62,926 nt of DNA, taken from Solobacterium sp. (lineage in GTDB: Bacteria > Bacillota_I > Bacilli_A > Erysipelotrichales > Erysipelotrichaceae). Each line of letters opens with the position of its first letter. Positions within the stretch are counted from its first letter, which is position 1. The DNA lies in contig JAFUFO010000033.1 in assembly GCA_017469885.1 (NCBI GenBank), forward strand, positions 1 through 62,926, read 5' to 3'. The notes under the pieces are model-generated. The model saw only the letters and a program-made list of their open reading frames with translations. It had not been told where the DNA came from and did not search any database. A program made the position numbers and the translations under genes. Positions 7,503 through 53,445 of the stretch are shown here, one piece after another.

Positions 7503-7520
7503 TGTTTCCTCCTGCCCTGT

Positions 7521-35152: not shown

Positions 35153-36469
35153 CTACACAATGGTTGTTGCTAAGTAGTTCATTTTCAATTCTTTTGAGGA
35201 TGGATCATACACTATTTCCTTCACCACCCCAAGCAGAAAGTCTCTCTTTTCATAGTATGTTAAATCACTGAAATGTTTTTTATTCATTCCCGCTTTGAGT
35301 CTTCTCAAGAAAAGGTCCATAGTTTTCTTATCAGTTTCGCACCTGGAATATATATTGGTAAGATGTTTAATATCCATATCATATGTCAAAGCTGTCTTGG
35401 GAATAGCGTCTATGATTTCCGACAATCCTTCGTATCTCTTTTTAAGTGTTTCTATATCCTCATTTAACGCCTTTTCTTGTAGCGTGATATTCAGCTCATC
35501 CATAAATCGTTCATTTATAAGCTTTTCTGGCACCTGAATTCCACAATGTCTGCACCGATAGTAATAATGCAGTTTTCCATTGCTACTGGATGAAGTATGG
35601 TTTGACATAATACCTGAACACTTATTGCAGATTACAAGCCCATCAAATACTCTTTGTTTTTTTGTCGGATTTGATTTTTTTGACAACCTTTCATGCGCCG
35701 TAATGAATAATTCCTCATCAATTATCGGGATCGTATGATTTGGATATTCAACTCCAAACCGTGTAAAGGTTCCATAGTATATCTTGTTATTAATGATCCG
35801 CGTAAGATACTCCTCCGTCCACTTCTTACCTAAAACCCCTTCAGAGTTCAAAGTATTCTTAAGTTCTCTTACCGTATTGTCTTTTATTGCAATGCTTTCA
35901 AATATTTTTTTGACAACATCTGCCTCCTCATCCTTAATAATCAACTTATGGTTATTCAAAGGATCTCTCTCATAACCAAATGGCGCTCCTGCCTTCGCAT
36001 AATTCCCTTGACGTGCAGATTCTTCTATTCCTCTCTTTGATCGACTTTTTATTGTCTCCCATTCCCATTGGGCCACAAGTACTATCAGGTATATAAAGAA
36101 TCTACCCATGGGGGATTTGGTGTCAATTTTTTCTGTAATACTGATTAAACTAACATCATACTCATCAAACAATTCCAGCAAAGTCGCTAAGTCTCTCACT
36201 TGTCTTGTCAGTCGATCAAGATTATGAATCACAATCACATCCACTTTTTTCTGTTTTACCAAGGCTATAATTTCGTTCATCACAGGACGAGATAGAGATT
36301 TCGCAGATGCACCTTCCTCCCTCATCATCGAAAAACTATACTTCGCATCATCGAAATAAATATTCACATAATTGCGGATCTTCTTTTCCTGATCATCTAA
36401 ATTAAATCCATTAATTGCTTGATCTCTTGTTGATTCGCGCCCATAACCGATTATTCTAACCTTAGACAT
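35153..36469 (-). CDS. Large serine recombinase (second of a tandem pair)
   Basis: Site-specific recombinase of 438 residues. The catalytic Ser is Ser 13 in YGRESTRDQ. The resolvase domain continues to about 150 (VIHNLDRLTRQ, GRFFIYLIVLVAQWEWE). A recombinase domain (FGYERDPLNNHKL ... IYYGTF) follows, then a zinc ribbon (CNKCSGIM ... CRHCG, about 285-312) and a coiled C-terminal region. It starts 8 bases inside the end of the previous recombinase gene. Such proteins join attP and attB without duplicating target bases. Confidence 0.9.
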   Translation of the reverse strand: MSKVRIIGYGRESTRDQAINGFNLDDQEKKIRNYVNIYFDDAKYSFSMMREEGASAKSLSRPVMNEIIALVKQKKVDVIVIHNLDRLTRQVRDLATLLELFDEYDVSLISITEKIDTKSPMGRFFIYLIVLVAQWEWETIKSRSKRGIEESARQGNYAKAGAPFGYERDPLNNHKLIIKDEEADVVKKIFESIAIKDNTVRELKNTLNSEGVLGKKWTEEYLTRIINNKIYYGTFTRFGVEYPNHTIPIIDEELFITAHERLSKKSNPTKKQRVFDGLVICNKCSGIMSNHTSSSSNGKLHYYYRCRHCGIQVPEKLINERFMDELNITLQEKALNEDIETLKKRYEGLSEIIDAIPKTALTYDMDIKHLTNIYSRCETDKKTMDLFLRRLKAGMNKKHFSDLTYYEKRDFLLGVVKEIVYDPSSKELKMNYLATTIV

Positions 36470-37835
36470 ATTTTATGATCCTCTCATATGTTTCTGATCC
36501 CTTCAACAACGCAGTCTTTTCTTCAAAATCAATGGAGATCTTATCAATGTATTTTTCTTTTAATCTTTCTCTTTCTTCATCATCTATTGTCATAAAAGTC
36601 ATTTTTCTAATATGGGACTCAGCATTCTTAATTCTAGCCAACAAGGCTTTTCGCTCACATGCATTAATGTTCATCATCTCCAAATAATAATCTTTACTGA
36701 TTCTCTGTCTGACATACCCGTTAATTAGCGTATTCATTTCCCCTCTTATTCTTTGCTCTTTAATCTTTAAAGATCGAACTTCCAAATACAGATGATGGTT
36801 TTTAACAAGATTATTAAGATCAATGACTATTGAAGAAAGAATTTTTTTCTCATTTATATATGCACCGCAATTGGGGCAAACATAATATTGATATTCACTC
36901 CCGCTTGGTTTTGTTGTGGATTTCTGTTCACAAATTTGACTACATTTTTCACAATATACCAGACCCTTAAACAAATAATTATGCCGGTGAAATTCCTTGG
37001 AATAAGCATTTTTGTTCGCAGCCTCCCACAGCTCTTTTGAAACAATTGCAGGCTGATGGTTGTCAAACTCCTCACCATACCATGCGAATGTTCCATAATA
37101 GATTCTATTTTTTATAATGTGCTCTATTCCAGAATCTTTCCATTGCCGTTCATACACATTTTCCTTTCTTAATTCTTTGGCAATCGTGTAGGGGGTATGT
37201 GTCCGATCAGCAAGCGATTGAAATATTCTTCGCACAATCTTTGCCTTTTCTTCGTCGATCAATAAATGCCTTTTATCATTAGGGTCTCTATAGTATCCAA
37301 ATGGAACTCGTGATTTTGCATAATTCCCCTGACGTGCAGATTCTTTTTTTCCTCGGACAGTGCGATCTCCAATAGTTTCCTCTTCCCACTGAGCAATCAA
37401 AACGATTGTTGACACAAAGAATCTTCCTTGCGCAGTATTTGTATCTATACTTTCTTTCAATGAAACAAGTTCTACATTATAGTCCGAAAACAACTGAAGC
37501 AGTGTTTGCATGTCATTGAGATTCCTGGTTAGCCGATCCAGATTATGAATGATTATTATATCTATTTCACCTTTTTGTATTTGTATAATAATCTCTTTCA
37601 TACGCGGGCGCTGTAACGATTTTGCTGATGCACCTTCTTCTCTAATCATTGAAAAATTAATATTCGCATCATCATAGTATAAGTTCACATATTCTTTAAT
37701 CCTTCTTTCCTGTTCATCAAGATTGAAACCGTCTTCCGCTTGCTCACGAGTAGATTCCCTTGCATAGCCCACAATACGCAGCATAGACTGGCCAGCGTTC
37801 TTATTATCAGGGGATACTATTTCATCACTATTCAT
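36462..37835 (-). CDS. Large serine recombinase (first of a tandem pair)
   Basis: Site-specific recombinase. The ATG at 37835 has AAGGAGG 6 bases upstream, which I prefer over a GTG seven codons earlier. The catalytic Ser is in YARESTREQ near residue 28. The resolvase domain is followed by a recombinase domain (FGYYRDPNDKRHLL ... IYYGTFAWYG), a zinc ribbon (CEKCSQIC ... CPNCG) and a C-terminal coiled coil. It is clearly related to the next gene and overlaps it by 8 bases, so the two are made together and probably act as a pair. Confidence 0.9.
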   Translation of the reverse strand: MNSDEIVSPDNKNAGQSMLRIVGYARESTREQAEDGFNLDEQERRIKEYVNLYYDDANINFSMIREEGASAKSLQRPRMKEIIIQIQKGEIDIIIIHNLDRLTRNLNDMQTLLQLFSDYNVELVSLKESIDTNTAQGRFFVSTIVLIAQWEEETIGDRTVRGKKESARQGNYAKSRVPFGYYRDPNDKRHLLIDEEKAKIVRRIFQSLADRTHTPYTIAKELRKENVYERQWKDSGIEHIIKNRIYYGTFAWYGEEFDNHQPAIVSKELWEAANKNAYSKEFHRHNYLFKGLVYCEKCSQICEQKSTTKPSGSEYQYYVCPNCGAYINEKKILSSIVIDLNNLVKNHHLYLEVRSLKIKEQRIRGEMNTLINGYVRQRISKDYYLEMMNINACERKALLARIKNAESHIRKMTFMTIDDEERERLKEKYIDKISIDFEEKTALLKGSETYERIIKYV

Positions 37836-38114
37836 CTCTGCCTCCTTTTCCTTCACTGTTTAGCGATAGTCATAGCTATCCAAATAGTAAGAACGGCACA
37901 GTTGTTGGTCATTTTCGAAGGTGCTGTGTTTCTAATCGCCTCTCCAAAACACAATTCAACGAATGCCTATGCACAGAGATTATTCAATATTCCGGTGGGT
38001 AAAAACCTTCCCACCGACTCAGAATTATCAAAAAAAATCAAATAAGGGTGCAGATTTCTGCCTCCTGCACAATTTTGCACCTGCCATCTACACTTTTTTT
38101 GGAAGATTGGCAGC
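37836..38114. other. Divergent control region between recombinases and HTH gene
   Basis: No gene. A 7-bp perfect inverted repeat CGGTGGG / CCCACCG (37992-38015) with a 10-base loop lies about midway between the two divergent start codons. It may be an operator or a recombination site. Confidence 0.4.
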
Positions 38115-38327
38115 ATGTTTACATATAAGAAGTTCTGGGAAAAATGCGCTCAAAAAGGCATTTCGAAGACAAAACTGATAAAACATTATAAACTCGGGCA
38201 CGAAACCGTAACCCGGCTAAAAAAAGATGAATCCATCTCCATGAAAACCATTCAAAGATTATGTAACATTCTTGAGTGCGATATAACCGAAATCGTTGAA
38301 TGCTATCCAGATAAGGAATCATCTTAA
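38115..38327 (+). CDS. Cro/C1-type HTH protein
   Basis: A 70-residue DNA-binding protein that is one helix-turn-helix domain (ISKTKLIKHYKLGHETVTRL, about 16-35), then KTIQRLCNILECDITEIVE, the usual ending of small Cro/XRE proteins in mobile elements. It is divergent from the recombinases and probably controls excision or its own promoter. A terminator follows at 38351. Confidence 0.85.
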   Translation: MFTYKKFWEKCAQKGISKTKLIKHYKLGHETVTRLKKDESISMKTIQRLCNILECDITEIVECYPDKESS

Positions 38328-38350: not shown

Positions 38351-38371
38351 TGCCCATCTATGGGCATTTTT
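38351..38371 (+). terminator. Terminator of the Cro-type gene
   Basis: TGCCCA / TGGGCA stem with a 4-base loop followed by six T. Confidence 0.8.
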
Positions 38372-38389
38372 TATACAACAGGTCTTTTC

Positions 38390-38406
38390 TGGGGCAAATT
38401 GCCCCA
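38390..38406. promoter_or_regulatory. Palindrome upstream of the WYL gene (copy 1)
   Basis: TGGGGCAA-A-TTGCCCCA, a 17-base perfect palindrome 16 bases before the WYL start codon. The same core recurs after the gene at 39480-39494. Position and symmetry fit an autoregulatory operator. Confidence 0.65.
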
Positions 38407-38422
38407 AGCAAAGGAGTACAAA

Positions 38423-39406
38423 ATGTCTTCTAAACTAATGCATCCGTTTTGCGTTCTTGGTATTCTCTCAAAATACTCTGACGCAGATAACATTCTTACC
38501 CAACCGGAAATACTAGAAAAACTCAAAAACGAATATAACTGTCCTATTACTCGCAAAACCTTTTACCACTCTATCAGCATCTTATTATCTAATGGCTATG
38601 ACATCGACACATATGCAGACAATAGAAAAGGTTACTACCTAAAAACTAGACCCTTCTCCGAAGAACAAGCCCTTTTCTTTTGCACCATGATGGAAGGAAC
38701 AAGTGAAATATCCAAAGAAGACAAAGAAAAAACAAGAGATGCTTTTTTATCATTTCTTTCTCGACCAATGAGTAAAGATGTTCTTGCGATGCTTAGCAAA
38801 AACCAAACTGGTCGTAATAGTTCCCACACTGTAAAGAATCTTTATGCCTTGTCGAGTGCAATTAAAACCGCTTCTAAAATAAAATTTGACTATATTCATC
38901 ATGACATCCATAAATCAGAAGTATTAAACGATAAGCCTTTTGATGATATGGAGCCTCGCTTCATCGTCACCAAAGACTCCCATTATTATTTGATCACCTC
39001 TGGAGGAAGACACAATTCTATTTCGCATTACAGAATCGATCGCATTCGGAACATAGAAATCTATAACAATTCCGAAGTGCCTGAGTTCCGCTATCAGGAT
39101 GCATATGACTATGCATTAAAAAGTATATTCATGTTCTCTGGTAAACCAGAATTTATACATTTGCGCGTAAAGAAAGAAAAGCGAAATGCTTTTGATCTTC
39201 TGCTTGACGAGTTTGGATTTAGTGTAAGATTCAGTGATTACAATGATGAATGGTTTGATGCTTTCGCAGAATGCTCTCCACAAGGAGTGCTAATTCTTGC
39301 ACAGAAATACCTTGATCTTTTTTTCATCATCTCACCAAAAAATCTTCAAGACGAATTGATCAGCAGAATGGAGACAAATTTATCATGGATCAAAAACTCT
39401 CCCTAA
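38423..39406 (+). CDS. WYL-domain transcriptional regulator
   Basis: Regulator of 327 residues from the ATG at 38423 (AAAGGAG 8 bases upstream; an earlier in-frame ATG would read through the palindrome and has no such site). An N-terminal winged helix (ILTQPEILEKLKNEY ... TRKTFYHSISILLSNGYDI, to about 60) precedes a WYL-type sensor (KIKFDYIHHDIH ... PRFIVTKDSHYYLITSG ... HYRIDRIRNIEI) and a WCX-like C-terminus. WYL regulators such as BrxR and CapW control phage-defence loci and bind palindromes. Here it may govern the island's defence genes; that is inference. Confidence 0.82.
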   Translation: MSSKLMHPFCVLGILSKYSDADNILTQPEILEKLKNEYNCPITRKTFYHSISILLSNGYDIDTYADNRKGYYLKTRPFSEEQALFFCTMMEGTSEISKEDKEKTRDAFLSFLSRPMSKDVLAMLSKNQTGRNSSHTVKNLYALSSAIKTASKIKFDYIHHDIHKSEVLNDKPFDDMEPRFIVTKDSHYYLITSGGRHNSISHYRIDRIRNIEIYNNSEVPEFRYQDAYDYALKSIFMFSGKPEFIHLRVKKEKRNAFDLLLDEFGFSVRFSDYNDEWFDAFAECSPQGVLILAQKYLDLFFIISPKNLQDELISRMETNLSWIKNSP

Positions 39407-39589: not shown

Positions 39590-39620
39590 TATAAAAAGGA
39601 CGTCTTTTACGAAACGCCCT
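39590..39620 (-). terminator. Terminator of the EcsC-like cassette
   Basis: AGGGCGT / ACGTCCT stem (one mismatch) with a 10-base loop and TTTTT on the minus strand, about 60 bases past the stop of the EcsC-like gene. Confidence 0.6.
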
Positions 39621-39676: not shown

Positions 39677-40633
39677 TTATCCTTGAGCAATCATTTGATT
39701 AATAGCATTTACTTCTTCTGCACTCTCAATGTAGTTGGGATTTGAGAGCCGTGTGTCACGCAACGATTTTTTCAATTTGTCACAACAAGGCTTAAATGTA
39801 AGATATGTAATTCCACCTCCAAGGACCCCTCCAACCACAGGAATTGATTTACCAAAAAAGCCAGCAAAAACATCCTTGGTCATTTTTTGGCCAAACCATT
39901 TCGCAACATTTTTTACTATTGGATAGATAGTCCCTTTAGTCAATGCAGCGTTTAACAGCTTTTTTTCAACGCCTTTTCCAAGAGCGTTCGCCATTATTTT
40001 CATGGCATTGTTTGCACCAGCTGTACCATACATAATTCCCATGCAAATTATAAGAATATTCATAGTTTCAGAGTCTAAGTGACTTCCTTTTTCTTCCACA
40101 TCAATCTGCGGAAAGCCGTATAAATACAACAGTTTCTGCATGGCTCGCAAAAGATAGCCATAATACTGAATAACATCTGCGGGTATTGTAGCTACCATTG
40201 CCAGTCCACCAGGAGCTCCTAATGCAGCAGAAATGCCCGAAACAAAATTGCGCTCATACTTAATGACTTCGTCGGCAATTTTATCAATCTCATCCCTCGA
40301 TATACCTGCATGCATCGGATTATATTGCACTGCGTCCTCGATCGTTTCGGGACTAAAATTTTTATAAAACTCTTTCCTAAGAAATGATTCCCGATTCACT
40401 TTTACTCCAGGTGTCTTTAGTCCTTTAATGATTACATCTTCAATGTCAATCTCTCCATTGCCATTTTCATCAATAACTTGAACAATCTTTTTTTGTGCAC
40501 TGTTAACAGTCTTGGATGCTCCTTGCGTAACAGTCTGGACTGCTTTTCCGGCCTCAGACGCGGATTTTTTTACTACCGATGCAGTATTTGAAGCGAATTT
40601 TTTTAAATCTATTTTGCTATCTTTATTTCCCAT
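39677..40633 (-). CDS. EcsC-like membrane-associated protein with an EF-hand-like loop
   Basis: A 318-residue protein. Residues 1-50 are Ser/Ala/Lys-rich and amphipathic. Residues 55-66 read DENGNGEIDIED, spacing like an EF-hand or dockerin calcium loop. From about 90 a helical region with GISAALGAPGGLAMVATIPADVIQYYGYLLRAMQKLLYLYG (three short runs) resembles the EcsC family, followed by glycine-rich hydrophobic stretches (GFFGKSIPVVGGVLGGGI). No signal peptide, so it probably sits at the inner membrane face. Last gene of a three-gene operon, 16 bases after the secreted nuclease/lipase-like gene. Function unknown. Confidence 0.65.
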   Translation of the reverse strand: MGNKDSKIDLKKFASNTASVVKKSASEAGKAVQTVTQGASKTVNSAQKKIVQVIDENGNGEIDIEDVIIKGLKTPGVKVNRESFLRKEFYKNFSPETIEDAVQYNPMHAGISRDEIDKIADEVIKYERNFVSGISAALGAPGGLAMVATIPADVIQYYGYLLRAMQKLLYLYGFPQIDVEEKGSHLDSETMNILIICMGIMYGTAGANNAMKIMANALGKGVEKKLLNAALTKGTIYPIVKNVAKWFGQKMTKDVFAGFFGKSIPVVGGVLGGGITYLTFKPCCDKLKKSLRDTRLSNPNYIESAEEVNAINQMIAQG

Positions 40634-40649
40634 TGCTACGACACCTTTC

Positions 40650-41504
40650 TTATTTAAAACATTTCTTGAAGAATTTTTCCTTATAAATAAGAAGACTCAC
40701 ATTATCCTCAAGTATTTCCATTAATCTCGTTGCGTACTCATTATATTTAGTATAGTTTTCCACATCGTATAAATCACTTTTCGATTTGTATACTTCTTTA
40801 ATGTCACGTTGGAGCGATTTCAGACTGTCGATAAAATTCCTATATGTTATTGTCTCGGTTTCAATGTCTGATGAACTTTGAAATAGTATCGGACTTAAGA
40901 GAATCAACTCCTCTATAATACCCGTTTCGTTCCCCCTACCTTTTACAAGAGGAATCTCCTCATAGCTTGGATGAAATGTTGTGTTGGATATGTGATCACC
41001 AATAATATGGACGTAATATATCAGTTTAGAAAAGGCAACGCATTGTGGGTCGTAGTATCCCAATTTCCCCGAGAGAAAGCCAAAATCAAATACCTTGTTA
41101 ACTGTATTGAGAATTATTCTTTTTCTTATATCCACCCAGTGGGCCTCATCTCCCGTCTCAAGTTTGGAATAATCATAATCCCAGCCGCGATGTGTGTAAT
41201 TGCGGTGCAACGCACCATGGCCAACATTGAATTCTTCCGTTTTTTCAGGGAGACCAGGTACACCAAATCCAATCAATTCATTCAAAGTATTTTGCCCGTC
41301 GTTATTATGTTGATCAATAGCAATTTCGCATGCATCATTCAAAGCGTCGAATGCATCTGTGTTTGAGACAGCAGATCCACCAAAAAGTACTTTTCTTAAT
41401 AATTGAGCATGCTTGTCCCCATCAAATGCATGCACTTTCATCGGTTGTAATGTGCAACAGACAACGGACAACAACAGGATGAATATTGATATCAGTCTTC
41501 TCAT
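40650..41504 (-). CDS. Secreted P1-nuclease/phospholipase-C-like protein
   Basis: A 284-residue exported protein with a signal peptide (hydrophobic 5-20, then VHAFDGD). The mature part is helical and His-rich: HGALHRNYTHRGWDYDY (about 96-112, His 100 and 105) and YYVHIIGDHISNTTFHP (about 163-179, His 166, Asp 170, His 171, His 178). That resembles the zinc-ligand helix (LVHFxGDxHQPLH) of S1/P1 nucleases and zinc phospholipases C. The match is by pattern only, so the activity is a guess. It overlaps the preceding gene by four bases. Confidence 0.6.
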   Translation of the reverse strand: MRRLISIFILLLSVVCCTLQPMKVHAFDGDKHAQLLRKVLFGGSAVSNTDAFDALNDACEIAIDQHNNDGQNTLNELIGFGVPGLPEKTEEFNVGHGALHRNYTHRGWDYDYSKLETGDEAHWVDIRKRIILNTVNKVFDFGFLSGKLGYYDPQCVAFSKLIYYVHIIGDHISNTTFHPSYEEIPLVKGRGNETGIIEELILLSPILFQSSSDIETETITYRNFIDSLKSLQRDIKEVYKSKSDLYDVENYTKYNEYATRLMEILEDNVSLLIYKEKFFKKCFK

Positions 41505-43303
41505 TTTGTCCTTTCAAATGTGATATCTTTAAATACCTTCAGTTTAGGTTTCACATGAGTAATAAATATTGCCTCTAATGGTTCACACTGCCCGCCTATG
41601 ACAGGGATTATCTCGATATTTATTAAAGTCCCATCTTCGTACTTGTAATTCTTAATGGATTCGCTCAAAAGTCGCACCCTAAACGATTCAACATTAGATG
41701 TCTCTTTTCCTCTGTCAACTTTTTCAACAGTCCAGTCGGTCACCTCTTTTTTCTCATTATCATTTTCAATTAGAACATTTATTTGAAAATTATTAGATAA
41801 AAGATTCGCTGGAAGAGTAATGCTATCTTCTGAGTATTCGACGTCATAATCAGAAACTGTTTCAATTTCATCAAAATAATATAATTCATCTAATGGAGTG
41901 GTCAGAAACAGCGGATCCTCCTTTTTTCTGCCATGAAGAATTCGTTCTATCTTATCTTTTTCCTGTTCAGAAATGTTCACTCTATCAGCCAGAGCAAATA
42001 ATAAGTCACAGTTTAAATACAGTGCTTCATTCACGGGAGGCAATTCTTTTTTTCGTTCTGCCTCTAACATCTTATTGTATTTTTCTATGTCCTTTTTTTC
42101 TGTCTTTGTTGCATCCTTTGGTACAGGCTTTTTCTGAATCTTTGAAACATACGTTGTATTCAACGTTGTCTGCTGATCAATTAAGTAGTTAACATTGTCT
42201 TTCGTCAATTTATACGCTGCTTCTAAAAACGATTTATCTTTTGTTGTTGAATATAAATCCAAATATGTTTGAGCCGCGAAATATCTTAGTGACCAGTCTT
42301 TTGTTTCTAAATTCGAAATCAGAGCTGAAAGATAATGCAATATCTGCTCATTTGCCTCTTCTTTATCTTTTTCAACTTCCTGAATTGAAACTATTGCCAA
42401 TGGTATTATTCTACTAAACTCATGATCCTTACGGAAAATCCGATAATTTAAGCTTTCATACTCTTTTACAGCCGTTAAGCATTTTGCGTATTCCTCTATC
42501 TGAAAATAGCATTCTGCAAGCGAGAGCCAATAAGGCCCAAACTTCTCAAACGTCCTTTTATTTGACTCAAAATATTGGATTTTACGGTCAACATTGGTTT
42601 TATTTCTATAATCTACAAACTCATCAATTTTTGTATTACTTAATGCATACTCATCAGGCATATTGCTTTTGTGAACCATGTCAATCATGTAGTTAAACAA
42701 TGCTTCCTGACTATGATTTAATGCTTTCGTAGCCTCATCATCCAATGCCCAATTATCTTGTAAATACTCAAGCTCAGCACTAGCCATAGCGGAATCATAG
42801 CTAGTTTTGGCGTCAACAGCCATGTACACAACAGATCCTATTAGTGAGGCAAGTGAGAATGATCTTGTTGCCGACAAGAGGCCGAGCGGATTCGGAACGG
42901 CATTTCTCAACGCCTGTGCTTTATTTTGATCGTAAATATACTGGAGGCGCTCCCGCTTAACATCAATCATCCTATAGTTGTCAATCGTTTCCAACATATC
43001 AGTCAACTGAACTTGGGTTCGAGAATCTATCGCGCTTGGAGCAGTATTATTCATAAGAGATGAGTAAATTTCTTCTAGTACAAGTTTACTGTTGCTCGAT
43101 TTGTTGATTTCACTATTGATAAGTGAAACATAGTTCAGCATCGCAACATAGTTATTATTCTCAATCGCTTCTTTTGCTTCATAAGTAGAACTAATATGAT
43201 CATTTCTATTGCCATCCGCATGAATGCAAAAAGAGTTCGAACCAATAGCTATCGTTGAAGACAGTAAAACTGTAATACCTGTCCTAATAATCTTTTTGAA
43301 CAT
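41501..43303 (-). CDS. Secreted 600-residue protein of unknown function
   Basis: From the ATG at 43303 (AAGG 6 bases upstream) it begins with a clean signal peptide (MFKKIIRTGITVLLSSTIAIG, first 20 shown are enough to see the hydrophobic core). That start removes 15 charged residues that would otherwise precede the signal. A hydrophobic Gly/Ser stretch near 150 may be membrane-inserted. The middle (200-400) has helical pairs such as YWLSLAECYFQIEEYAKCLTA that look like TPR repeats; the last 130 residues look beta-rich. I do not recognise the family. It is coupled to the nuclease/lipase-like gene. Confidence 0.65.
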   Translation of the reverse strand: MFKKIIRTGITVLLSSTIAIGSNSFCIHADGNRNDHISSTYEAKEAIENNNYVAMLNYVSLINSEINKSSNSKLVLEEIYSSLMNNTAPSAIDSRTQVQLTDMLETIDNYRMIDVKRERLQYIYDQNKAQALRNAVPNPLGLLSATRSFSLASLIGSVVYMAVDAKTSYDSAMASAELEYLQDNWALDDEATKALNHSQEALFNYMIDMVHKSNMPDEYALSNTKIDEFVDYRNKTNVDRKIQYFESNKRTFEKFGPYWLSLAECYFQIEEYAKCLTAVKEYESLNYRIFRKDHEFSRIIPLAIVSIQEVEKDKEEANEQILHYLSALISNLETKDWSLRYFAAQTYLDLYSTTKDKSFLEAAYKLTKDNVNYLIDQQTTLNTTYVSKIQKKPVPKDATKTEKKDIEKYNKMLEAERKKELPPVNEALYLNCDLLFALADRVNISEQEKDKIERILHGRKKEDPLFLTTPLDELYYFDEIETVSDYDVEYSEDSITLPANLLSNNFQINVLIENDNEKKEVTDWTVEKVDRGKETSNVESFRVRLLSESIKNYKYEDGTLINIEIIPVIGGQCEPLEAIFITHVKPKLKVFKDITFERTK

Positions 43304-43359
43304 CACCTTATCCTCATCTTTCCATCCATATTTAATATCAACGAGCATCCGCCAATTAT

Positions 43360-43593
43360 TCAGTCAGATTGTCTTTTCCATTCTGTTAGGCTCATTCCAG
43401 TCTGTTTGTCGATCCATCTGGAAAGATCTTCATTCGCGATCAAGTTATACTTGCCCACCTTTTTATAAGGCAATCCATCCACATGCAAATACGTGTGAAC
43501 AGTTCGGGTGGTGACACGCAAAATTTCAGCTACTTCCGCAACTGTGTAATAGCCTGGCGGTGTTTTCTGCCGGCGCACTGTCATCTTTCTCAT
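43360..43593 (-). CDS. Excisionase/MerR-type HTH protein
   Basis: A 77-residue DNA-binding protein with YYTVAEVAEILRVTTRTVHTYLHVDGLPYKKVG (two runs, about 15-47), the standard excisionase/MerR-like winged HTH, then NEDLSRWIDKQ. It could be the recombination directionality factor for the serine recombinases or a local regulator. It lies 56 bases upstream of the secreted-protein gene, in the same orientation, with a 22-bp palindrome ahead of it. Confidence 0.82.
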   Translation of the reverse strand: MRKMTVRRQKTPPGYYTVAEVAEILRVTTRTVHTYLHVDGLPYKKVGKYNLIANEDLSRWIDKQTGMSLTEWKRQSD

Positions 43594-43643: not shown

Positions 43644-43665
43644 CACCGTTCCCCAGGGAACGGTG
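43644..43665. promoter_or_regulatory. 22-bp palindrome upstream of the excisionase-like gene
   Basis: CACCGTTCCC-CA-GGGAACGGTG has 10-bp perfect arms and lies 51 bases before the start codon. The two-base loop makes it a poor terminator, so an operator is more likely. The rest of the 43594-43863 gap has no gene. Confidence 0.55.
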
Positions 43666-43863: not shown

Positions 43864-44403
43864 TTAAAACGCAGGGCCAAAATCAATTATGTCTTTCACA
43901 TCATCTTCTTCATGATAATCATTAATATCTATCAGCAACTCGTCTAATGCATTCAGATAATCCTCAAAATGCATATTTGCTTGATAAAGTCTATCATGTA
44001 ATAGTTCCAATCCGCCCAACATATATGTTTCAAAAACTTCGATATTGTTTTGAAATTGAGGATCATCTTCAGTATATCTAAATGCGTTATTGATCCTTTC
44101 AATAGGAGATAGCACTTCTTTGTCAGCATTAAGCATTACAAGCTTATAAGCAAATACCAAGTCTTGATAATGATTTGTAAATTGGTTTGCCATTATTCTT
44201 TTTGTAGGATCTCCTGTATCTGGTTTTCCTTTGACTTGATAGTGTGCACCAATTATTGCTGCGGCAAGATATAATTCCACTGCAGAATCAAATATTTTAG
44301 CCCCGCTTGCCGGATCAACTGTCTCAGTTAAATCCACTACCATTTGGGTGTAACGGCCCTTAAAAAGATAATCTTCAAGAAATAGTTTTTTTATTTTAGC
44401 CAT
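43864..44403 (-). CDS. 179-aa protein ending the ssp operon (SspF/G/H-type component)
   Basis: Soluble, acidic, mostly helical protein (e.g. DSAVELYLAAAIIGAHYQVKG and FETYMLGGLELLHDRLY), 179 residues. I do not recognise a catalytic motif. GAGGAGGTG at the end of the ATPase gene lies 11 bases before its ATG, so it is made together with the ATPase. Published SspABCD-SspFGH systems have three restriction genes after sspBCD; this would be the smallest of the three. Which letter applies I cannot say. Confidence 0.6.
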   Translation of the reverse strand: MAKIKKLFLEDYLFKGRYTQMVVDLTETVDPASGAKIFDSAVELYLAAAIIGAHYQVKGKPDTGDPTKRIMANQFTNHYQDLVFAYKLVMLNADKEVLSPIERINNAFRYTEDDPQFQNNIEVFETYMLGGLELLHDRLYQANMHFEDYLNALDELLIDINDYHEEDDVKDIIDFGPAF

Positions 44404-44409
44404 TTCTTT

Positions 44410-46434
44410 TTACACCTCCTCAATAATTGTGGAATACGCACCAGTTTTTCTCATTGTGTATTCTTTTCCAAGAATATTTGCAATATCCTTCTTAACATAT
44501 AAACCATCTGTATCCTTAATAAAGAATATTACCTGTTCAGCAATGTTCGGCATTATTTTGCAAAAGTTTTCAATGCGTTTTGTATCAAACGATGACGATG
44601 GTGCATCCATAACTAGCGGATAAGGTTCGACCTCAAGATTGTCTATTAGCTCATCATCATCGGTTTTGTCTTGAGCCTTAGAAACAGCTTTCTCGCGGGC
44701 GAGTTTAATGATTCCACCAATAAATGAAAATGCAAGAATGGCATCTTGAGATGTTGAATTTTGAAAATCATCAAGATCTAAACTATTATTACTCTTAATT
44801 TCCATACTATAATCGTCATTCAGTACCAAGTAAATATTGACATCAAACACATTGGAAAAAATCTCATTAATAGCGTCTTGAAGTTCCTTTCTCTTCTCTC
44901 TCTCACCCTTTTCGCAATATTTTTCTACTTTTTCTAGAAGCCAGCTTGCATACGCTTCACATTGTTCAAGTTTTCTGACTTTTTCGTCTGTAGATTTATA
45001 ATTGAGCTTTTCCTTTTTGGCTATATCTCGGAGGCTAATTTGTGTTTCAATCTTATTCTGCAACTCCCCTATGGTTTCGTGGATTTTCTCGATTGTCTGC
45101 TCCAAATCTTGCTCTCTTTGTTTTTTCTTTGTCATGTCAGGAAACGATTTGATTTCTCTATCTATTTCCTCAAGTTGCTTTTCTTTGTTCACAATAGATT
45201 CTCGAAGTTCACGAAGCCTTCTCTCGTCATTTTGATGATTTTCCCAATACTCATTCGCTGTTTCACAACGTATTCTTCCGGTTTCATCAAAGGTATTGAT
45301 TTCAGCCCCAAGGCTATGAGGAGGTAAATATTGAATTAATGATTGAAGAATCTTTCGTTCTTCACAGTTTTCCGAAATCTTTTTCCCGCAAAAACATTCT
45401 CCTTCATTCAAATTTCCATTTAAAACATACTCAATTGCAGAGGCATTCATCCCGGGTATTCCTTTGCTGGCATCTCCTCCATGTTCTTTCAAAAATTCAA
45501 GCGATTCTTCAATTAGCGACTTAGCAAGCAAGCGGTAACCCTGTTTACTGAAATCACTAAATATTTTCTTTTTATTATCTTTTTCAGAATCAATCAGCCG
45601 CTTGATCTCTGTACTTAATAGTAATGATTGTTTTTGTTTCTCGGCGACATTCCCTGATTTTAAGATCTCGTCACTAACAGATTTCTTTTCTTCCTTAAAC
45701 TTTTCCAAACTACTCTTATATGATGTAAGCTGCTGGTCAAATCCTTCGATTTTATTATCTGCATCATTTATCCTTCGTTGAATCTCTTGGATTGTTAAGT
45801 CAGCCTTATTATTTTCAATTTCTTCAGAGTATTGCTTTACAACCTTTTTAAGATCACGTATTTCTTGATATAGCCAATTAAAGCCAAGCATCCCACGAAT
45901 TGCATTGGTGAATTCACCACTTGATGTGGTTTTCCCGTTAGATATTTCCTGGCCAATCGCTTCAATGTTTTCCCCTTGGAAAAAGAAATAAGGAAACAGA
46001 TCTTTCGGAACAATTTCGTCAATTAACGATCGTGCTGCACTGTCACGTAATTCTTTTGAGTTACCATCATCGTCAACATAACTAATCAAAACATATGAAT
46101 TCGACACTTTTACTTTTGTATTCGCCTTTGTAGCATACGCCCAACGATTAATACGATATTCTCTTCCTAAGTGTTCCAAACATATTGTTCCTTCTATTTT
46201 TAGTTCTTCCTCTCGAGCAACAAGTTTATTTGCCTGTTCTACGTTCACAATACTTTTTAGTCCAGAAGCCTCTCCATAAAGGATCCAAGAGAAAGATTCA
46301 AGCAATGTTGTTTTACCTGTAGCATTTTCCGCAATTATCAAAGTCGCCTTTTTATCAGGATCTACCGAGAACTGAATGTCCTGTTCTCCAATAAATTGCC
46401 TAAAATTCTTTAGTGTTAATGATTTGATAATCAT
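44410..46434 (-). CDS. SMC/Rad50-like ATPase of the ssp operon
   Basis: ATPase of 674 residues. It opens with the recF/SbcC pattern KSLTLKNFRQF, then Walker A AENATGKTT (Lys 41; the usual first Gly is Ala). Two long coiled-coil arms (about 190-300 and 390-500) flank a Cys-containing hinge (GECFCGKKI ... NCEERK). Walker B is YPLVMDAPSSSFD near 600. It resembles DndD as well as general SMC-like defence ATPases. It probably partners the helicase in the restriction module. Its ATG overlaps the stop of the 55-aa gene (ATGA). Confidence 0.8.
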   Translation of the reverse strand: MIIKSLTLKNFRQFIGEQDIQFSVDPDKKATLIIAENATGKTTLLESFSWILYGEASGLKSIVNVEQANKLVAREEELKIEGTICLEHLGREYRINRWAYATKANTKVKVSNSYVLISYVDDDGNSKELRDSAARSLIDEIVPKDLFPYFFFQGENIEAIGQEISNGKTTSSGEFTNAIRGMLGFNWLYQEIRDLKKVVKQYSEEIENNKADLTIQEIQRRINDADNKIEGFDQQLTSYKSSLEKFKEEKKSVSDEILKSGNVAEKQKQSLLLSTEIKRLIDSEKDNKKKIFSDFSKQGYRLLAKSLIEESLEFLKEHGGDASKGIPGMNASAIEYVLNGNLNEGECFCGKKISENCEERKILQSLIQYLPPHSLGAEINTFDETGRIRCETANEYWENHQNDERRLRELRESIVNKEKQLEEIDREIKSFPDMTKKKQREQDLEQTIEKIHETIGELQNKIETQISLRDIAKKEKLNYKSTDEKVRKLEQCEAYASWLLEKVEKYCEKGEREKRKELQDAINEIFSNVFDVNIYLVLNDDYSMEIKSNNSLDLDDFQNSTSQDAILAFSFIGGIIKLAREKAVSKAQDKTDDDELIDNLEVEPYPLVMDAPSSSFDTKRIENFCKIMPNIAEQVIFFIKDTDGLYVKKDIANILGKEYTMRKTGAYSTIIEEV

Positions 46435-46598
46435 AAGACTTCATCCTCGATTATTTTCATGATGCTTTTAACCATGTATCCCTGTGTATGCTCTTTTTTC
46501 TTGTAATTAGTTTTTTCTAGCTTATGAATTCTTTTCTCTATTTTTCTTTTGGTTTCTGGATCCAATTTTTTCTTAGCGTCTGCTGTCTGCTCCATCAT
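46431..46598 (-). CDS. 55-aa basic coupled peptide between helicase and SMC-like ATPase
   Basis: A short gene with full translation signals: GAGGAGG lies 4-5 bases before ATG at 46598, inside the helicase coding end. The start shares one base with the helicase stop (TAATG) and the stop overlaps the ATPase start (ATGA). The product is highly charged and probably helical (MMEQTADAKKKLDPETKRKI as its first 20 residues, ending KIIEDEVL), Lys-rich with no Cys. Being locked between two machine subunits by overlaps at both ends suggests a real subunit or adaptor. I know of no family. Confidence 0.7.
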   Translation of the reverse strand: MMEQTADAKKKLDPETKRKIEKRIHKLEKTNYKKKEHTQGYMVKSIMKIIEDEVL

Positions 46599-48778
46599 TA
46601 TTCCTCCTCATTCCATTGTATTTCAGCTAACTCATCAATATCGAAGTCATATAATCCATAATCTTCTTTAATCTGATCAGCTAATAAATCACTTTCATCA
46701 GGATTCATGGAATACTTTCCAAATTCCGCCATTCGAGCTGTTTCGTTTTTAATTAATGCTTTATATGATTTAGAAGATTCCGTGCTATCTATTAGTTCAG
46801 TTGGAGGAAGTGGTAAAGTAATAAAATCATAGATTACAGCTTTTTTCTTACCCTTTGCCGTTCTCAGTACTCGACCTCTCCTTTGAATATACTCTCTTGG
46901 ATTAGTACTACTTGCGAGAATGAAAGCCGTGCGAATACCAGGTATATTAACGCCTTCATCAAGGCATTTAATTGCGACAAGTGCTTGTAAATCATTTCCA
47001 TCTTTGAAACGATTCTTTAAGACTCTTCTTTCCTCAGTTGATTCTCTAGATGTGTATCTACTAACCTTCATACCATATTGTGAATACAGTAGAGAGGTCA
47101 CTTCATCTATCTGCTTCGTTTCACCCTCTGTTCCTTTATTAATTTTTGAAGTCCCACAATAGATGAGCATGTAATGATCTTTTCGATCCGCATAGGGCCG
47201 AATTACTTCTAGGAGTTCTGTCACTTTTCCCCTTGCTCCGGCAATCAATCTAGCCCTTTGAAGAGCATATCGCTCTCCCGTTTCATTCATTTTTCCTTCT
47301 TTGTTAATACACTTTGATATCAATTTTGTTAAACGCAGATATTCTTCGCGCTCGTCTTCATCAAGATAGACAATTATAGGATGATACTCATAAGGAGTTA
47401 GTTTGTCTTCTCGAATTGCCCTTTCTAACGGATACTCAATGCACTTTTTCCCAAAATAACCAAATATACGTCGCGTTCCTTCCTCATCTCGATATCTCTC
47501 AACAGTGGCTGAAAGAGCAAGTCGAAAGTTAAAGTTGTATAACATGTAATCAACCATTGCTTCGGTGCCGAAATTATGTGCCTCGTCTGCCACTAATAAT
47601 GCTGGGCCTTTAATTTCTTTTAGAACCTCTTGTACCTTTGGAAGTTTATAAGAAGCATACGTAGTGATAAAGTAGAAAAACGGCAATGTCCCCGCATTGA
47701 ATTGAAGAACGCTGCTTTTCAGTTCGGATAAATATCCTGCGTACTGCTTGCTTGAATAACCAACAATCATATGATTGATATGAAATAACGCAGCATCATC
47801 AAGCCATTGCTCAACTAGATGTGTATATGGAGCAATAATAACGGTCGCTAGATGATACTTTGTTCGCTGTAATAAAGTGACCATCGCACCAAATCCGGTA
47901 AATGTCTTTCCAGTTCCAGTTGCCATATCAAATATGCCAACACACCTTTCAGACAACCATTTATTGATTGCGTCACCTTGATATTTATAAGGAAAAGTCG
48001 GGGTTCGCTCTTTATCGATTCGAGGAAGATCTATTTCATTTTTTCTGCGAAATTCTTCTTCATCCTTTTCAATATTTCTGTTGTATGTTTCCTTTTTATA
48101 TTTAAATAATTTTTTCTTAACTACTTCAGGGAATTGAAACACTTCAATTTTGTTGGTTTGGTTTGCCCACATCTCATCAAAATCGCTTTCAACATCATAA
48201 ACAAAAGATGTTGATTTATCCCACGACTTAAAAACACGAATTTGTTCAAAATTATTATTAAACGCATTAGCGGATTCATTTAATGAACCTTCGAAAGCAA
48301 CTTTGTTTCCTAGAGAGTCTTCAAAAATGCCAATTTTCTCGTGATACATTCCAATATCATCTTCAGAGAAGCAAGTAATTGCAACCTTGATATCCATAGC
48401 ACCAGAAGATATTAGATGACAAAGAATATTTAACCTTTCCTTACCAAATTTATCGTCTGGATCATCTAAAGCAGACAATAAAGACTTTTCGATTATTTCC
48501 TGTCTCGTAGCATAACCTTTTTTTATAGCGGTCACATCTTCTATTGTTAGTCTTGGCGAAACAATTAATTTGATTACTGGGTCCATTCCGGCACTATACT
48601 TTTCCGCAACATTTAATAACCCCTTTGAGGTATAAATCAATGATGAAGATGAGAAAAATCCAACTGCTCTCTTATATGAAACGCTCTCTAGCAGCATTTT
48701 CTCGATAAAAGATTTTCCAATGTTAGGAGTATCAGACGATCTGTATTTTCCTTTAATGTCTATATCAAGAAAACTCAT
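46598..48778 (-). CDS. PLD-nuclease/SF2 helicase of the ssp operon
   Basis: A 726-residue fusion. Residues 30-180 are a phospholipase-D-type nuclease domain with one HxK motif (YHEKIGIF, His 146/Lys 148) and GSLNESANAF after it. Residues 260-700 are a superfamily-2 helicase: TFPYKYQGDAI, Walker A MATGTGKT (Lys 291), DEAH at 398-401, SATVERY, and the motif VI region YIQRRGRVLR. This is the natural DNA-cutting part of the restriction module, acting on unmodified DNA. It lies 18 bases after sspA. Confidence 0.85.
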   Translation of the reverse strand: MSFLDIDIKGKYRSSDTPNIGKSFIEKMLLESVSYKRAVGFFSSSSLIYTSKGLLNVAEKYSAGMDPVIKLIVSPRLTIEDVTAIKKGYATRQEIIEKSLLSALDDPDDKFGKERLNILCHLISSGAMDIKVAITCFSEDDIGMYHEKIGIFEDSLGNKVAFEGSLNESANAFNNNFEQIRVFKSWDKSTSFVYDVESDFDEMWANQTNKIEVFQFPEVVKKKLFKYKKETYNRNIEKDEEEFRRKNEIDLPRIDKERTPTFPYKYQGDAINKWLSERCVGIFDMATGTGKTFTGFGAMVTLLQRTKYHLATVIIAPYTHLVEQWLDDAALFHINHMIVGYSSKQYAGYLSELKSSVLQFNAGTLPFFYFITTYASYKLPKVQEVLKEIKGPALLVADEAHNFGTEAMVDYMLYNFNFRLALSATVERYRDEEGTRRIFGYFGKKCIEYPLERAIREDKLTPYEYHPIIVYLDEDEREEYLRLTKLISKCINKEGKMNETGERYALQRARLIAGARGKVTELLEVIRPYADRKDHYMLIYCGTSKINKGTEGETKQIDEVTSLLYSQYGMKVSRYTSRESTEERRVLKNRFKDGNDLQALVAIKCLDEGVNIPGIRTAFILASSTNPREYIQRRGRVLRTAKGKKKAVIYDFITLPLPPTELIDSTESSKSYKALIKNETARMAEFGKYSMNPDESDLLADQIKEDYGLYDFDIDELAEIQWNEEE

Positions 48779-48796
48779 AGTATCCTCTTCTTATAT

Positions 48797-49927
48797 TTAC
48801 AATGTACCTAATGCTCTCACTGCTTTTGCCAATTCAGATTTTGTATTGAATGCTCCAACACTCAATCTCACAGTCCCATTAAATTCTTTGCTACCAATAA
48901 GCTCATGAATAAATGGGCTACAATGAAAGCCTGTCCTTACACATATATCAAATTCCTCAGAGAGTATGGAGCCTACATCTGCCGAGGAATATCCGTTTAC
49001 CGCCAATGAAACGATCCCAACGATTTTTGAAACATCTTCTGGTAGAAATAGATGCACATTTGGCAGATTAGAAAGCTTATCTATCAAATAGTCTGTCAAC
49101 TCTTTTTCGTGAGAATAAAGAGTATTGTTATTTTCAAGCCATTTCAAGCTCGCATTCATACCAGCTACTGCAACACTGTTCAAGCTTCCTGACTCATATC
49201 GTCCCGGTCCATCTTCGGGCATCTTGTGATTCAGTGAATCTGATCCAGTTCCTCCGCTTTTTGTGACGTTTAATTTAATTCCCGTGAGATTGTAGAAGCC
49301 GGCGATACCGAATGATGCATAAAGAGATTTATGCCCAGCGAAGACAACGAAATCAGTATTTCCAACTGATGGATTTAGGATCCCTAGACTCTGCGAACAG
49401 TCGAGTACTGTAATTGAATTATATCGCTTTGCAGACGCAAAAATTGTTCCAAACGGAAGAATATAGCCTGTTACATTGCTGATATGGGATATAAATACAG
49501 CCTTAGGATTTTTTAAAGCAAATAAATCAGCTGCTCTTTCCTCATCAAACTTCCAAGTCTTTTTATCAAATGGAAGAAGTTCGATGTTAATTCCTATTTT
49601 TTCTTTCAGATTATAAAGTGGTCTAACTACAGCATTATGCTCAAAGGGAGATATATAAACCGTATCTCCACTTTGAAATGGAATTCCGTTAATGATAATG
49701 TTTAGTGCCTCTGTTGCTGATGATTCAAAAGAGACGGTATTTCCAGGAACTTTCAACAGATCACCAAGAAGCTGCCTCGTTTCTTGAATGAGTTCCGTAA
49801 CGGAACGGGCAGAAGGATAGCTCCCCCTCCCCGCGTTAAAAGCAAGGTTTCGATTTCCATAATCTAACGCCTTATACACTTCCTCAGGTTTAGGATAGGT
49901 TGTTGCTGCATTATCAAGATAAATCAT
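48797..49927 (-). CDS. sspA: SspA-like cysteine desulfurase
   Basis: PLP enzyme of 376 residues that takes sulfur from cysteine as a persulfide. It begins with the aminotransferase-V pattern IYLDNAATTYPKP. The PLP Lys is in VFAGHKSLYASFG (about 205) and the persulfide Cys in RTGFHCSPF (about 338), a SufS/Csd-like arrangement. Its position in the ssp operon, 14 bases after sspC, indicates it supplies sulfur to SspD. Many sspBCD-type loci lack their own desulfurase and use IscS, so its presence is informative. Confidence 0.88.
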   Translation of the reverse strand: MIYLDNAATTYPKPEEVYKALDYGNRNLAFNAGRGSYPSARSVTELIQETRQLLGDLLKVPGNTVSFESSATEALNIIINGIPFQSGDTVYISPFEHNAVVRPLYNLKEKIGINIELLPFDKKTWKFDEERAADLFALKNPKAVFISHISNVTGYILPFGTIFASAKRYNSITVLDCSQSLGILNPSVGNTDFVVFAGHKSLYASFGIAGFYNLTGIKLNVTKSGGTGSDSLNHKMPEDGPGRYESGSLNSVAVAGMNASLKWLENNNTLYSHEKELTDYLIDKLSNLPNVHLFLPEDVSKIVGIVSLAVNGYSSADVGSILSEEFDICVRTGFHCSPFIHELIGSKEFNGTVRLSVGAFNTKSELAKAVRALGTL

Positions 49928-49941
49928 ATTATTTCTCCGAA

Positions 49942-52900: not shown

Positions 52901-53445
52901 TCCCAGGTTCCCTTGTTCTTACGCCAGTTTTCAAGAAGTTCAAGGCAGACGGAATAAATAGTATTTGGAACAATGCTTTCTTTGCCTACTCTTTTTAGTG
53001 CATCATTTAATGCCAGCATAAAAGACTGCTGAACATTGTCATAGTTTGAGTTGACGATAACCGGCAGAAGTTTCATTTTGCCAGCATCAAATTTCATTAT
53101 TAATTCATATAATTCTTTATCTATCGCTTTGATCCGCTTCAGAAGATTCTTATAAACTATGGTTTTCTTGTCTTTCCCAATCAAATAGGCAAGAACTAAA
53201 AGGAGAAAAGATTTTCCTTTTCCATACGGACCGACCAATGTAGTTGCTTTCTCAGTAGTCATGCCTAAAAAGCAACGGAAGTATCTCTTTAGCACATCAC
53301 AGATGTCTGAAGTCGGAATGTACTCTTCTATCTTTTTTTCGTTATTCAGATCAAATTCCAGGTTAATGGAAGCCTGGAAGTTCTTATTAATACTAACGAT
53401 ATCTCTGTACAGCATCGCCTTACTCTCCTCCAAGCTCTTTCTCAA
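49942..53445 (-). CDS. sspC: SspC-like large ATPase
   Basis: A 1167-residue P-loop protein. Walker A is GPYGKGKSF (Lys 78) and Walker B is FIIFDEF (Asp 258, Glu 259). The N-terminal pattern resembles BrxC/SspC-type large defence ATPases. The remainder is helical with no recognisable catalytic motif. It overlaps sspB by 26 bases. In the Ssp scheme SspC is the ATPase that works with the DUF4007 nickase and SspD to insert sulfur into one DNA strand. The letter is assigned by context rather than a specific motif. Confidence 0.75.
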   Translation of the reverse strand: MRKSLEESKAMLYRDIVSINKNFQASINLEFDLNNEKKIEEYIPTSDICDVLKRYFRCFLGMTTEKATTLVGPYGKGKSFLLLVLAYLIGKDKKTIVYKNLLKRIKAIDKELYELIMKFDAGKMKLLPVIVNSNYDNVQQSFMLALNDALKRVGKESIVPNTIYSVCLELLENWRKNKGTWDTLKVCLDKERITYKELKLGLEDYSPEKYRTFESIYNCMTIGVKFNPLISDDVTKLYSDVDYELSKLGYSGMFIIFDEFSKFIESSGSSLMKNLKIIQDFAELASRSSKDCQLHITCVTHKSLNLYIDSSNKKDSFKTVEGRFTEIKFNRSLEENYQIISAAIRKKDGYEKVLGGFKKKNAGFIERIQKSQPFEKEGNVDSLINGCFPLNPMTVYALIHLSEIVAQNERTLFTFISDTDEHSLNSFIRNSNTTSKLFDVDEIYDYFSPLLRREEENAIRNIWFRTEGTLARTDDQKKRKLIKALAIILMINDNDRFAPSVENLSLAVEMPAEETQNLIDAMIDDHYLRRNVINHLLSFASANSKEIDDQIKTITKARGKNIPIDSIAGEIDETKYFLPRRHNEQKKITRFLRTVYLTEKQFMEMSSFDVFYEHMFCDGIVINLIRNDLKEKDIKTKMLQINDQRAIVRYPAEKMDKYFTDELIRYAAIQEIIRRGGNDQVVTSELNILFEEIRDDIQSLIDRHYGKKCKFFSAALKNEDTNKDFIEALSLIMERYYPKTPVFNNELINKNELTTQYQKPVNNVMQWILEGMNETDYAYTETSPESTVRASVVNRILKDSTTIDENAREIVDGIKDFIFEAERKKTEMQTIVDKYTAAPYGVRKGILPILFSKAISELSDNVILYIQNQELDLVPTNIVKAINNPGKYSVSFSRGSKEQSNYLYNMLALLKAKTAGNFRVDTRTLCEEYRKFFVGLPAIMRARDNLSDYLKIDQNIIAYQNLFYSYNINPYELVFDRPQETFETSDYEKITNKLSDYILNWKEYLNGYKQELIGMIRKEFSIRKTTSLKMGLTDYVRKVTEDTTPVLNEEASRINNAINNSGFDDNNTCDDLAYATIGVYIEDWNNDESEAMKEKLHAFKNALIQSNKIDTSNSSLDQVLSNISSVQSTPLGQLMRNSIENAMDEFAEGVSTEEKIAILGELMKSLL

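Follow-up and report, generated by a model that had tools for sequence, protein, structure and literature searches.

BIG-B, a mobile exported gene pair of gut and rumen bacteria and of phages, with a predicted DNA-cutting enzyme outside the cell

The window studied here is a 62,926-nucleotide (nt) stretch of Solobacterium sp. DNA (contig JAFUFO010000033.1), and our subject is a locus of three minus-strand genes at 39677–43303. An earlier reading of the letters alone (hereafter the sequence-only reading) took these genes as one undescribed cassette, made up of a secreted protein of 600 amino acids (aa), a secreted protein like P1 nucleases or phospholipases C (PLC), and an EcsC-like protein. 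Of the three genes, we find that only two make up the conserved unit: the first, given the working name BIG, followed by the second, B. The two are paired across genomes, carry N-termini of export type, keep a common set of residues, show domain insertion or replacement, and are mobile. The pair moves between gut or rumen bacteria and phages, and probably supplies a DNA-cutting enzyme outside the cell. We infer catalysis, the substrate, a complex of the two proteins and a role in exclusion, and give a rough probability of 0.4 to the reading as a whole, in which BIG-B is a mobile exported cassette with an exchangeable catalytic part that would cleave DNA at the cell surface. As an observation the sequence-only reading was sound, and as an interpretation half right: an undescribed pair stands next to an unrelated candidate defense gene.

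A conserved pair and a local third gene

All three open reading frames (ORFs) are present where that reading placed them. With the features around them they are, from left to right:

39597–39620, minus strand: terminator-like stem, downstream of the EcsC-like gene
39677–40633, minus strand: EcsC-like gene, ORF of 318 aa
40650–41504, minus strand: B, core gene 2, ORF of 284 aa
41501–43303, minus strand: BIG, core gene 1, with its likely start (the ORF opens at 43348, 615 aa)
43360–43593, minus strand: HTH_17/excisionase-like DNA-binding protein (Pfam HTH_17 1.6e-10; PHROG 66 1.2e-07)
43644–43665, minus strand: terminator-like stem, upstream, separating the unit from phosphorothioation genes

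Some ORF starts were set mechanically and are over-long. For BIG, the end first given to the gene, 43303, is a later ATG (600 aa) that follows a AGGATAAGG-like ribosome-binding sequence, and it is a better start than 43348. The BIG and B ORFs overlap by 4 nt, and the EcsC-like gene follows B after 16 nt, with an AGAAAGG-type site. The HTH_17 gene precedes the BIG ORF by 11 nt and the likely BIG start by 56 nt. Because terminator-like stems flank the set upstream and downstream, HTH_17, BIG, B and EcsC can form a single transcript, of which the HTH_17 gene is probably the first gene; in the region, six such same-strand stems were found versus 2.3 expected.

Conservation was followed in 31 BIG loci (L044–L074), 29 from a BIG-profile scan of genome contigs and two from a scan of viral contigs, the fetched loci being 3.6–17.8 kb long. 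Some contigs are duplicates (L025/L046, L027/L059, L009/L066, L026/L069, L028/L070, L029/L071), and L075, L076 and L108–L111 repeat L073 and L074; counts out of 31 use L044–L074 only. B lies downstream of BIG, on the same strand and in the same order, at 25 of these loci, 22 of which have the two genes −4 to +4 nt apart. The exceptions are L058, in which B is decayed, L072, in which BIG is broken or fragmented, and L073, where the B start first called is too long and puts the gap at −37 nt, an alternative start giving +2 nt. One relative of B, L031, occurs without BIG on a 12.8-kb contig. Over 24 pairs the BIG and B distances are correlated (rho 0.54; best of 2000 permutations 0.45), for which common ancestry by itself can also suffice. 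Near pairs have dN/dS ratios of 0.04–0.29 where computable, with dS high or saturated in most; where dS is measurable, the genes are under purifying selection.

Within the host family, BIG is found in nine of 272 genomes: the window's own; five more that have BIG itself; and G005, G035 and G069, in which the sole match is a distant relative of 760 aa that looks cytosolic. Class-wide, BIG and B are each found in one of 296 genomes, the window's own, and the window protein alone finds B in 5 of 149 relatives. BIG and B of the window have no useful-level match in Pfam, NCBIfam, PADLOC or PHROGs, those of L044 have none in NCBIfam, and no description of a BIG-B-like pair was found in the open-access literature, within one library and the terms tried. 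The earlier view that the cassette is undescribed and that two of its proteins are exported is supported, export being read from the N-terminal sequences.

The third gene belongs to a separate, widespread family; it is a local passenger of this operon copy and a candidate defense gene. By profile match, it is a distant EcsC relative (PF12787, E 2e-05, residues 31–277, 24.8 bits versus a cut-off of 30.4) and a clear PDC-S30 protein of PADLOC (E 1e-96, model positions 9–257 of 268, residues 60–309), with "defense" as a candidate label; PDC-S30 is reportedly named in two papers. The EcsC-like call made earlier stands as a distant likeness, below the Pfam cut-off. A six-frame profile search of the fetched flanks, in which short contigs could hide the gene, found EcsC at 0 of 31 BIG loci. 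Neither BIG nor B is present at any of the nine EcsC homologue loci fetched, of 28 matching genomes besides the window's own. EcsC is found in 29 of the 272 host-family genomes, and both families only in the window's genome (G000) and in G037, where EcsC and BIG are ~22.6 kb apart.

We rejected the trio as one unit on the count of 0/31; by the refuting condition that the sequence-only reading itself set, homologues that are never neighbors, EcsC fails. The pairing it drew between an outside hydrolase and an inside EcsC protein is seen only in this island. A single defense system, with EcsC sensing or acting at the inside of the membrane and B outside, would fit the 16-nt spacing and shared terminators of the window as well as the PDC-S30 match; with no EcsC gene in the fetched flanks of the 31 BIG loci, some on short contigs, and only two of the 272 family genomes carrying both families, it is highly improbable.

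Two side observations concern this family. An EF-hand-type loop (DENGNGEIDIED) at residues 55–66 of the EcsC-like protein is kept in nine of ten aligned relatives, and a calcium-switched EcsC defense candidate is possible on that account. At L042 (423–3215), an EcsC/PDC-S30 homologue adjoins what appear by eye to be phage endolysin and holin genes.

The BIG and B proteins and the exchange of domains

BIG is composed of a signal peptide, a helical N-terminal region, a superhelix like those of tetratricopeptide repeats (TPR), and a C-terminal beta-sandwich; in the 615-aa ORF, the superhelix spans residues ~237–500 and the beta-sandwich 509–613. The AF2 model (pLDDT 83, pTM 0.80) matches TPR structures in VIA with Z up to 11.9 (154 residues, root-mean-square deviation 3.6), which can reflect a common helical-repeat arrangement. 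The best Foldseek match has E 0.01, an FN3 row (6msv) has probability 0.94 and E 0.1, and the BIG profile has no match among PDB sequences. A strict lipobox is present in 9 of 31 BIG ORFs (L051, L054, L059, L061, L062, L063, L064, L066, L068), and further leaders, those of L049, L056 and L067 among them, are lipobox-like by eye. Of the rest, several are of AxA type and that of L045 is a hydrophobic anchor; the BIG sequences of L058, L065 and L072 are without N-termini, and alignment A4 leaves out L072, with its broken BIG. Judging from their leaders, both BIG and B are very likely exported.

In the alignment of 21 stand-alone B homologues (A5; the fragments L058 and L034 were left out of A3 and A5), residues H32, D64, H100, T104, H105, G107, W108, W123, R127, Y163 and H166 are invariant, and D170 is kept in at least 90%. 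In 18 of the 21 (L045, L067 and L072 differ), the mature protein would begin with H, Y or F, 5–6 positions before H32. The His/Asp pattern that the sequence-only reading picked out is metal-ligand-like. The AF2 model of B is all helical (pLDDT 89.3, pTM 0.85). Chance-level matches only are found between B and PDB sequences, and a Pfam search of 26 B homologues gives an inserted endonuclease, described below, and chance matches only.

Membership of B in the P1 or PLC families is not supported. Among the 26 homologues, hmmscan at E 0.5 found no match to PF02265 (S1/P1 nuclease), and none matched PF00882 (zinc-dependent PLC, Zn-PLC). With hhalign, the probability is 0.14% for PF00882, for which alignment A6 leaves out 8 of 30 loci (L086, L089, L093, L094, L097, L101, L103, L105; four wrong frames, the others near-duplicates or over-long starts). 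For P1 nucleases it is 4.6–8.8%, with 7.5% for 12 P1 rows and 8.8% for all 25 rows, which include L141 (divergent P1 set, wrong frame); against the divergent P1 set it is 1.6–2.0%, and global hhalign of B with P1 gives nothing useful. Because the same test also leaves P1 and PF00882 unconnected (0.4%), it cannot exclude a remote tie between B and P1. Neither P1 nor PLC folds are among the best 50 VIA matches of B listed, and none is in the Foldseek listing.

The order of H, D, H and HxxxD in B agrees with that in P1 and PF00882 sequences, and the best local matches of the B and P1 profiles cover two stretches, the aromatic-x4-His at the start of the mature protein and the VHxxGD helix. The P1 motifs, taken from L118–L129, are W-x4-H, D, H, HxxGDxHQPxH and LHxxWD, which we take to be metal ligands; the first four are found in B by order, and HQPxH and LHxxWD of the P1 rows are absent. 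What remains of the proposed P1/PLC likeness is the motif order and the local N-terminal and VHxxGD matches; the profile probability is low, these searches gave no fold match, and the two later motifs are missing. Judging by its motifs, B may work like a P1/PLC-type enzyme.

Other evidence comes from homologues in which B is altered or replaced. Five B homologues (L051, L056, L059, L065, L031; 477–481 aa) contain an Endonuclea_NS_2 domain (PF13930), which we take to be of the type called EndA. It sits just after the HxxxD helix and is followed by the C-terminal remainder of B. The best PF13930 match is 4.8e-20, both members scored singly pass the cut-off, and an NRxHL catalytic-type motif is present in all five, ~106–111 residues past the HxxxD histidine. 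In these proteins H32, D64 and H100 are lost, and H105, W108 and H166 are kept. In the BIG tree, the four inserted-B loci with BIG and L068, which is without B, form one supported group of five, and one gain and one loss can suffice for the two changes. In L066, a lipoprotein with metallo-beta-lactamase (MBL) fold overlaps the BIG stop in B's place; its best NCBIfam match is ComEC_Rec2 (TIGR00361, 2e-35, positions 424–663), with a score of 122, under the cut-off of 190. In L030, a distant, cytosolic-looking BIG relative (765 aa) lies 11 nt after an endonuclease/exonuclease/phosphatase gene, an arrangement not found in L032 or L033; the row at 7504–12204 of L030 is made up of an ADP-ribosylglycohydrolase gene and these two. 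It is mainly because different phosphodiester-cutting folds occur in or beside the same scaffold that we read the pair as a nuclease device.

These exchanges also bear on the idea, implied by the sequence-only reading, that B is a PLC-like enzyme acting on membrane lipids or envelope polymers, and damages competitors or infected cells. The shared order of H, D, H and HxxxD suits it. However, the swapped parts are a DNA/RNA endonuclease and a ComEC-like domain, not lipases, no profile or fold match connects B with PLC, and no immunity gene recurs beside the pair; we consider this quite improbable.

Mobility and genomic setting

We regard BIG-B as mobile because of the G+C content of its island, the Lachnospiraceae grouping of the window BIG, the serine recombinases, and the phage contigs. 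The island extends over ~35.0–57.0 kb of the window at a G+C content of 0.32–0.42; outside it, the values are 0.50–0.56 to the right and 0.526 over 1–33000, with a shoulder of 0.41–0.46 at 33–35 kb. In the tree, the window BIG clusters at 100/100 with homologues from Lachnospiraceae (Butyrivibrio and Porcincola), although its host is one of the Erysipelotrichaceae. Serine recombinases lie directly upstream of the pair in L059 and also occur in the window. On one phage contig (L073) the pair lies within replication genes (helicase, primase, exonuclease-like, ssDNA-binding, polymerase); on the other (L074) it comes after genes for tail, holin and integrase. A relative of the L074 integrase is encoded near the pair in L044. 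Beyond the window, ten hand-picked neighbor proteins were scored with PADLOC, and hits include type I restriction-modification (R-M) in L044 and L061, a type I methyltransferase in L063, and PbeC with a type IV-like enzyme in L046. Of the mobile defense setting proposed at the outset, mobility is supported, and the link to defense holds for some loci (the window, L044, L046, L061, L063).

The remaining features at the left end of the island are:

35153–36469 and 36462–37856, minus strand: two large serine recombinases, left end of the low-GC island
38115–38327, plus strand: Cro/C1-type HTH_26 protein (Pfam HTH_26 7.5e-15), adjoining the WYL gene
38360–39406, plus strand: WYL-domain regulator (Pfam WYL 1.4e-06), on the opposite strand to BIG-B

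Both recombinases match PHROG 95 (integrase), and the gene at 36462–37856 has Pfam Resolvase and Recombinase domains. The longest att-type repeat between 33.2–35.4 and 55.8–58.0 kb is 11 nt, and the ends of the element were not found there. The WYL regulator and the excisionase-like gene, the latter at 43360–43593 on the minus strand, are the neighbors that had been named. The defense-rich island of the sequence-only reading is likewise real, with Ssp/Pbe-like genes at 43864–56007. These minus-strand genes make up a mixed-type phosphorothioation island (dnd_assoc_4-like, PbeC/DndD-like, PbeA-like PLD helicase, SspA/DndA-like desulfurase, SspC-like, SspB-like), which also has a BrxP-like PAPS-reductase protein with a ferredoxin-like part, here separate from SspB.

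Two other loci have neighbors of interest in their own right. In L056 (2517–15130), the genes that run alongside the inserted-nuclease BIG-B encode an HtpX-like protease, a TerB protein and, by eye, VWA-like and ExbB/ExbD-like products, maybe as an undescribed Ter-like envelope operon. In L059, the gene at 13780–15225, 2.7 kb downstream of BIG-B, looks TIR-like at its start by eye.

Alternatively, BIG-B may be a secreted nuclease system that serves nutrition or the matrix by degrading environmental DNA (food, biofilm, host traps), with mobility as niche adaptation rather than defense. EndA-type and ComEC-like parts suit extracellular DNA, the pair is sporadic in Clostridia with several rumen or gut samples by title, and secreted nucleases are reportedly tools for escape from traps (PMC9294136). 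On the other hand, the pair occurs on phages and beside R-M and phosphorothioation genes, and no nucleotide-uptake genes were recognised by eye among the neighbors listed. We consider this explanation unlikely.

Proposed role and known systems

In the reading that we prefer, BIG would be an anchor and scaffold, by way of its TPR superhelix and beta-sandwich, and a lipoprotein in many homologues. B would itself be a metal-dependent phosphodiesterase, or carry one, on the outer side of the membrane; a nuclease is the likeliest kind. In the window type, the putative site would be formed by H32, D64, H100, H105, H166 and D170; in the sister clade, the EndA-like domain inserted beside that site would take over; and in L066 a ComEC-like metallo-hydrolase lipoprotein would fill B's slot. 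The likely job would be to cut DNA that crosses or reaches the envelope, as in superinfection or plasmid exclusion. We lean toward B being a metal-dependent phosphodiesterase; that DNA is its substrate is somewhat less than an even bet, and a benefit through exclusion of phage or plasmid DNA is a more tentative suggestion.

With the enzyme outside and the cell's DNA inside, no immunity gene would be needed. No third gene that could serve for immunity recurs beside BIG-B in neighbor clustering of 32 loci, and this absence fits an enzyme acting outside. It also tells against an interbacterial toxin pair, that is, an exported effector with its anchor or chaperone. The exchangeable nuclease part does resemble effector module exchange; the leader is of Sec type, though, and no dedicated secretion marker was seen, so that such a pair is very improbable.

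Several results weigh against the exclusion reading. B is absent from 6 of 31 BIG loci: L066, which has another hydrolase in its place, L070, which stops at the contig edge, and L060, L068, L069 and L071, in which tblastn of the loci did not find it. Two of these (L069, L071) constitute a divergent Erysipelotrichaceae subgroup with solo BIG. No profile link of B to P1 nuclease or Zn-PLC was found, Foldseek of B versus PDB and BFVD gives no match at E 0.001 or better, and VIA gives helical bundles only (best Z 6.9). Many loci (L045, L049, L057, L062 and L067, for example) have ordinary chromosomal neighbors, the pair is on only two viral contigs, and the phage and plasmid collections have no match with the queries tried. 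In addition, TerB in L056 and TelA in L053 would suit a role in envelope stress too. It is possible that BIG is a TPR adaptor and B a non-enzymatic metal binder, together an envelope sensing or stress module carried among island stress genes. The L056 genes for TerB and an HtpX-like protease, the upstream TelA of L053, and the retention of H105 and H166 in the clade that lost other ligands are in line with this, whereas the intact-looking nuclease insertion and the replacement by an MBL hydrolase indicate catalysis. A stress module is, in our view, rather unlikely.

If the exclusion reading is true, BIG-B represents a new exclusion layer in gut and rumen Firmicutes, with a catalytic part swapped three ways on one scaffold, and B stands for a family of helical metal hydrolases that is new. 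Insertion of the domain opens the substrate question to direct test. The analysis also corrects the trio reading, in that the EcsC link is unsupported by relatives. To our knowledge, nearly all nucleolytic phage defenses are cytoplasmic. BIG-B could be the first known mobile exclusion system whose nuclease works outside a Gram-positive cell: an exchangeable DNA-cutting unit, borne by a TPR scaffold at the surface, would destroy phage or plasmid DNA on its way through the envelope. Taken as a whole, this claim is doubtful.

Finally, BIG-B can be compared with known systems. With S1/P1 nucleases and Zn-PLC, B shares an aromatic-x4-His after the leader and, farther along and in matching order, D, H and VHxxGD; unlike them, it is without HQPxH and LHxxWD, and no significant profile or fold match joins them. 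EndA-type secreted DNA/RNA non-specific endonucleases are matched by the inserted domain of five B homologues, NRxHL included, but here the domain is embedded in the B scaffold and paired with BIG, and the window copy is without it. The nearest match of the downstream protein of L066 is the C-terminal metallo-beta-lactamase domain of ComEC/Rec2, whereas the protein itself is a free-standing lipoprotein without the channel domain, scoring under the cut-off. The PDC-S30/EcsC family concerns the third gene only (E 1e-96 to PDC-S30), which has an N-terminal EF-hand-type loop and belongs to a family not tied to BIG-B. Ltp lipoproteins of Streptococcus thermophilus temperate phages can stop DNA entry at the surface (PMC3952083). 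These superinfection exclusion proteins are exported surface lipoproteins, carried as phage "morons" and acting on incoming DNA outside the cytoplasmic membrane, features that BIG-B shares or is predicted to share; as described in PMC3952083, Ltp works as one protein and has no nuclease partner, whereas BIG has a TPR/beta-sandwich architecture and a conserved hydrolase-like partner, with exclusion as its predicted role.

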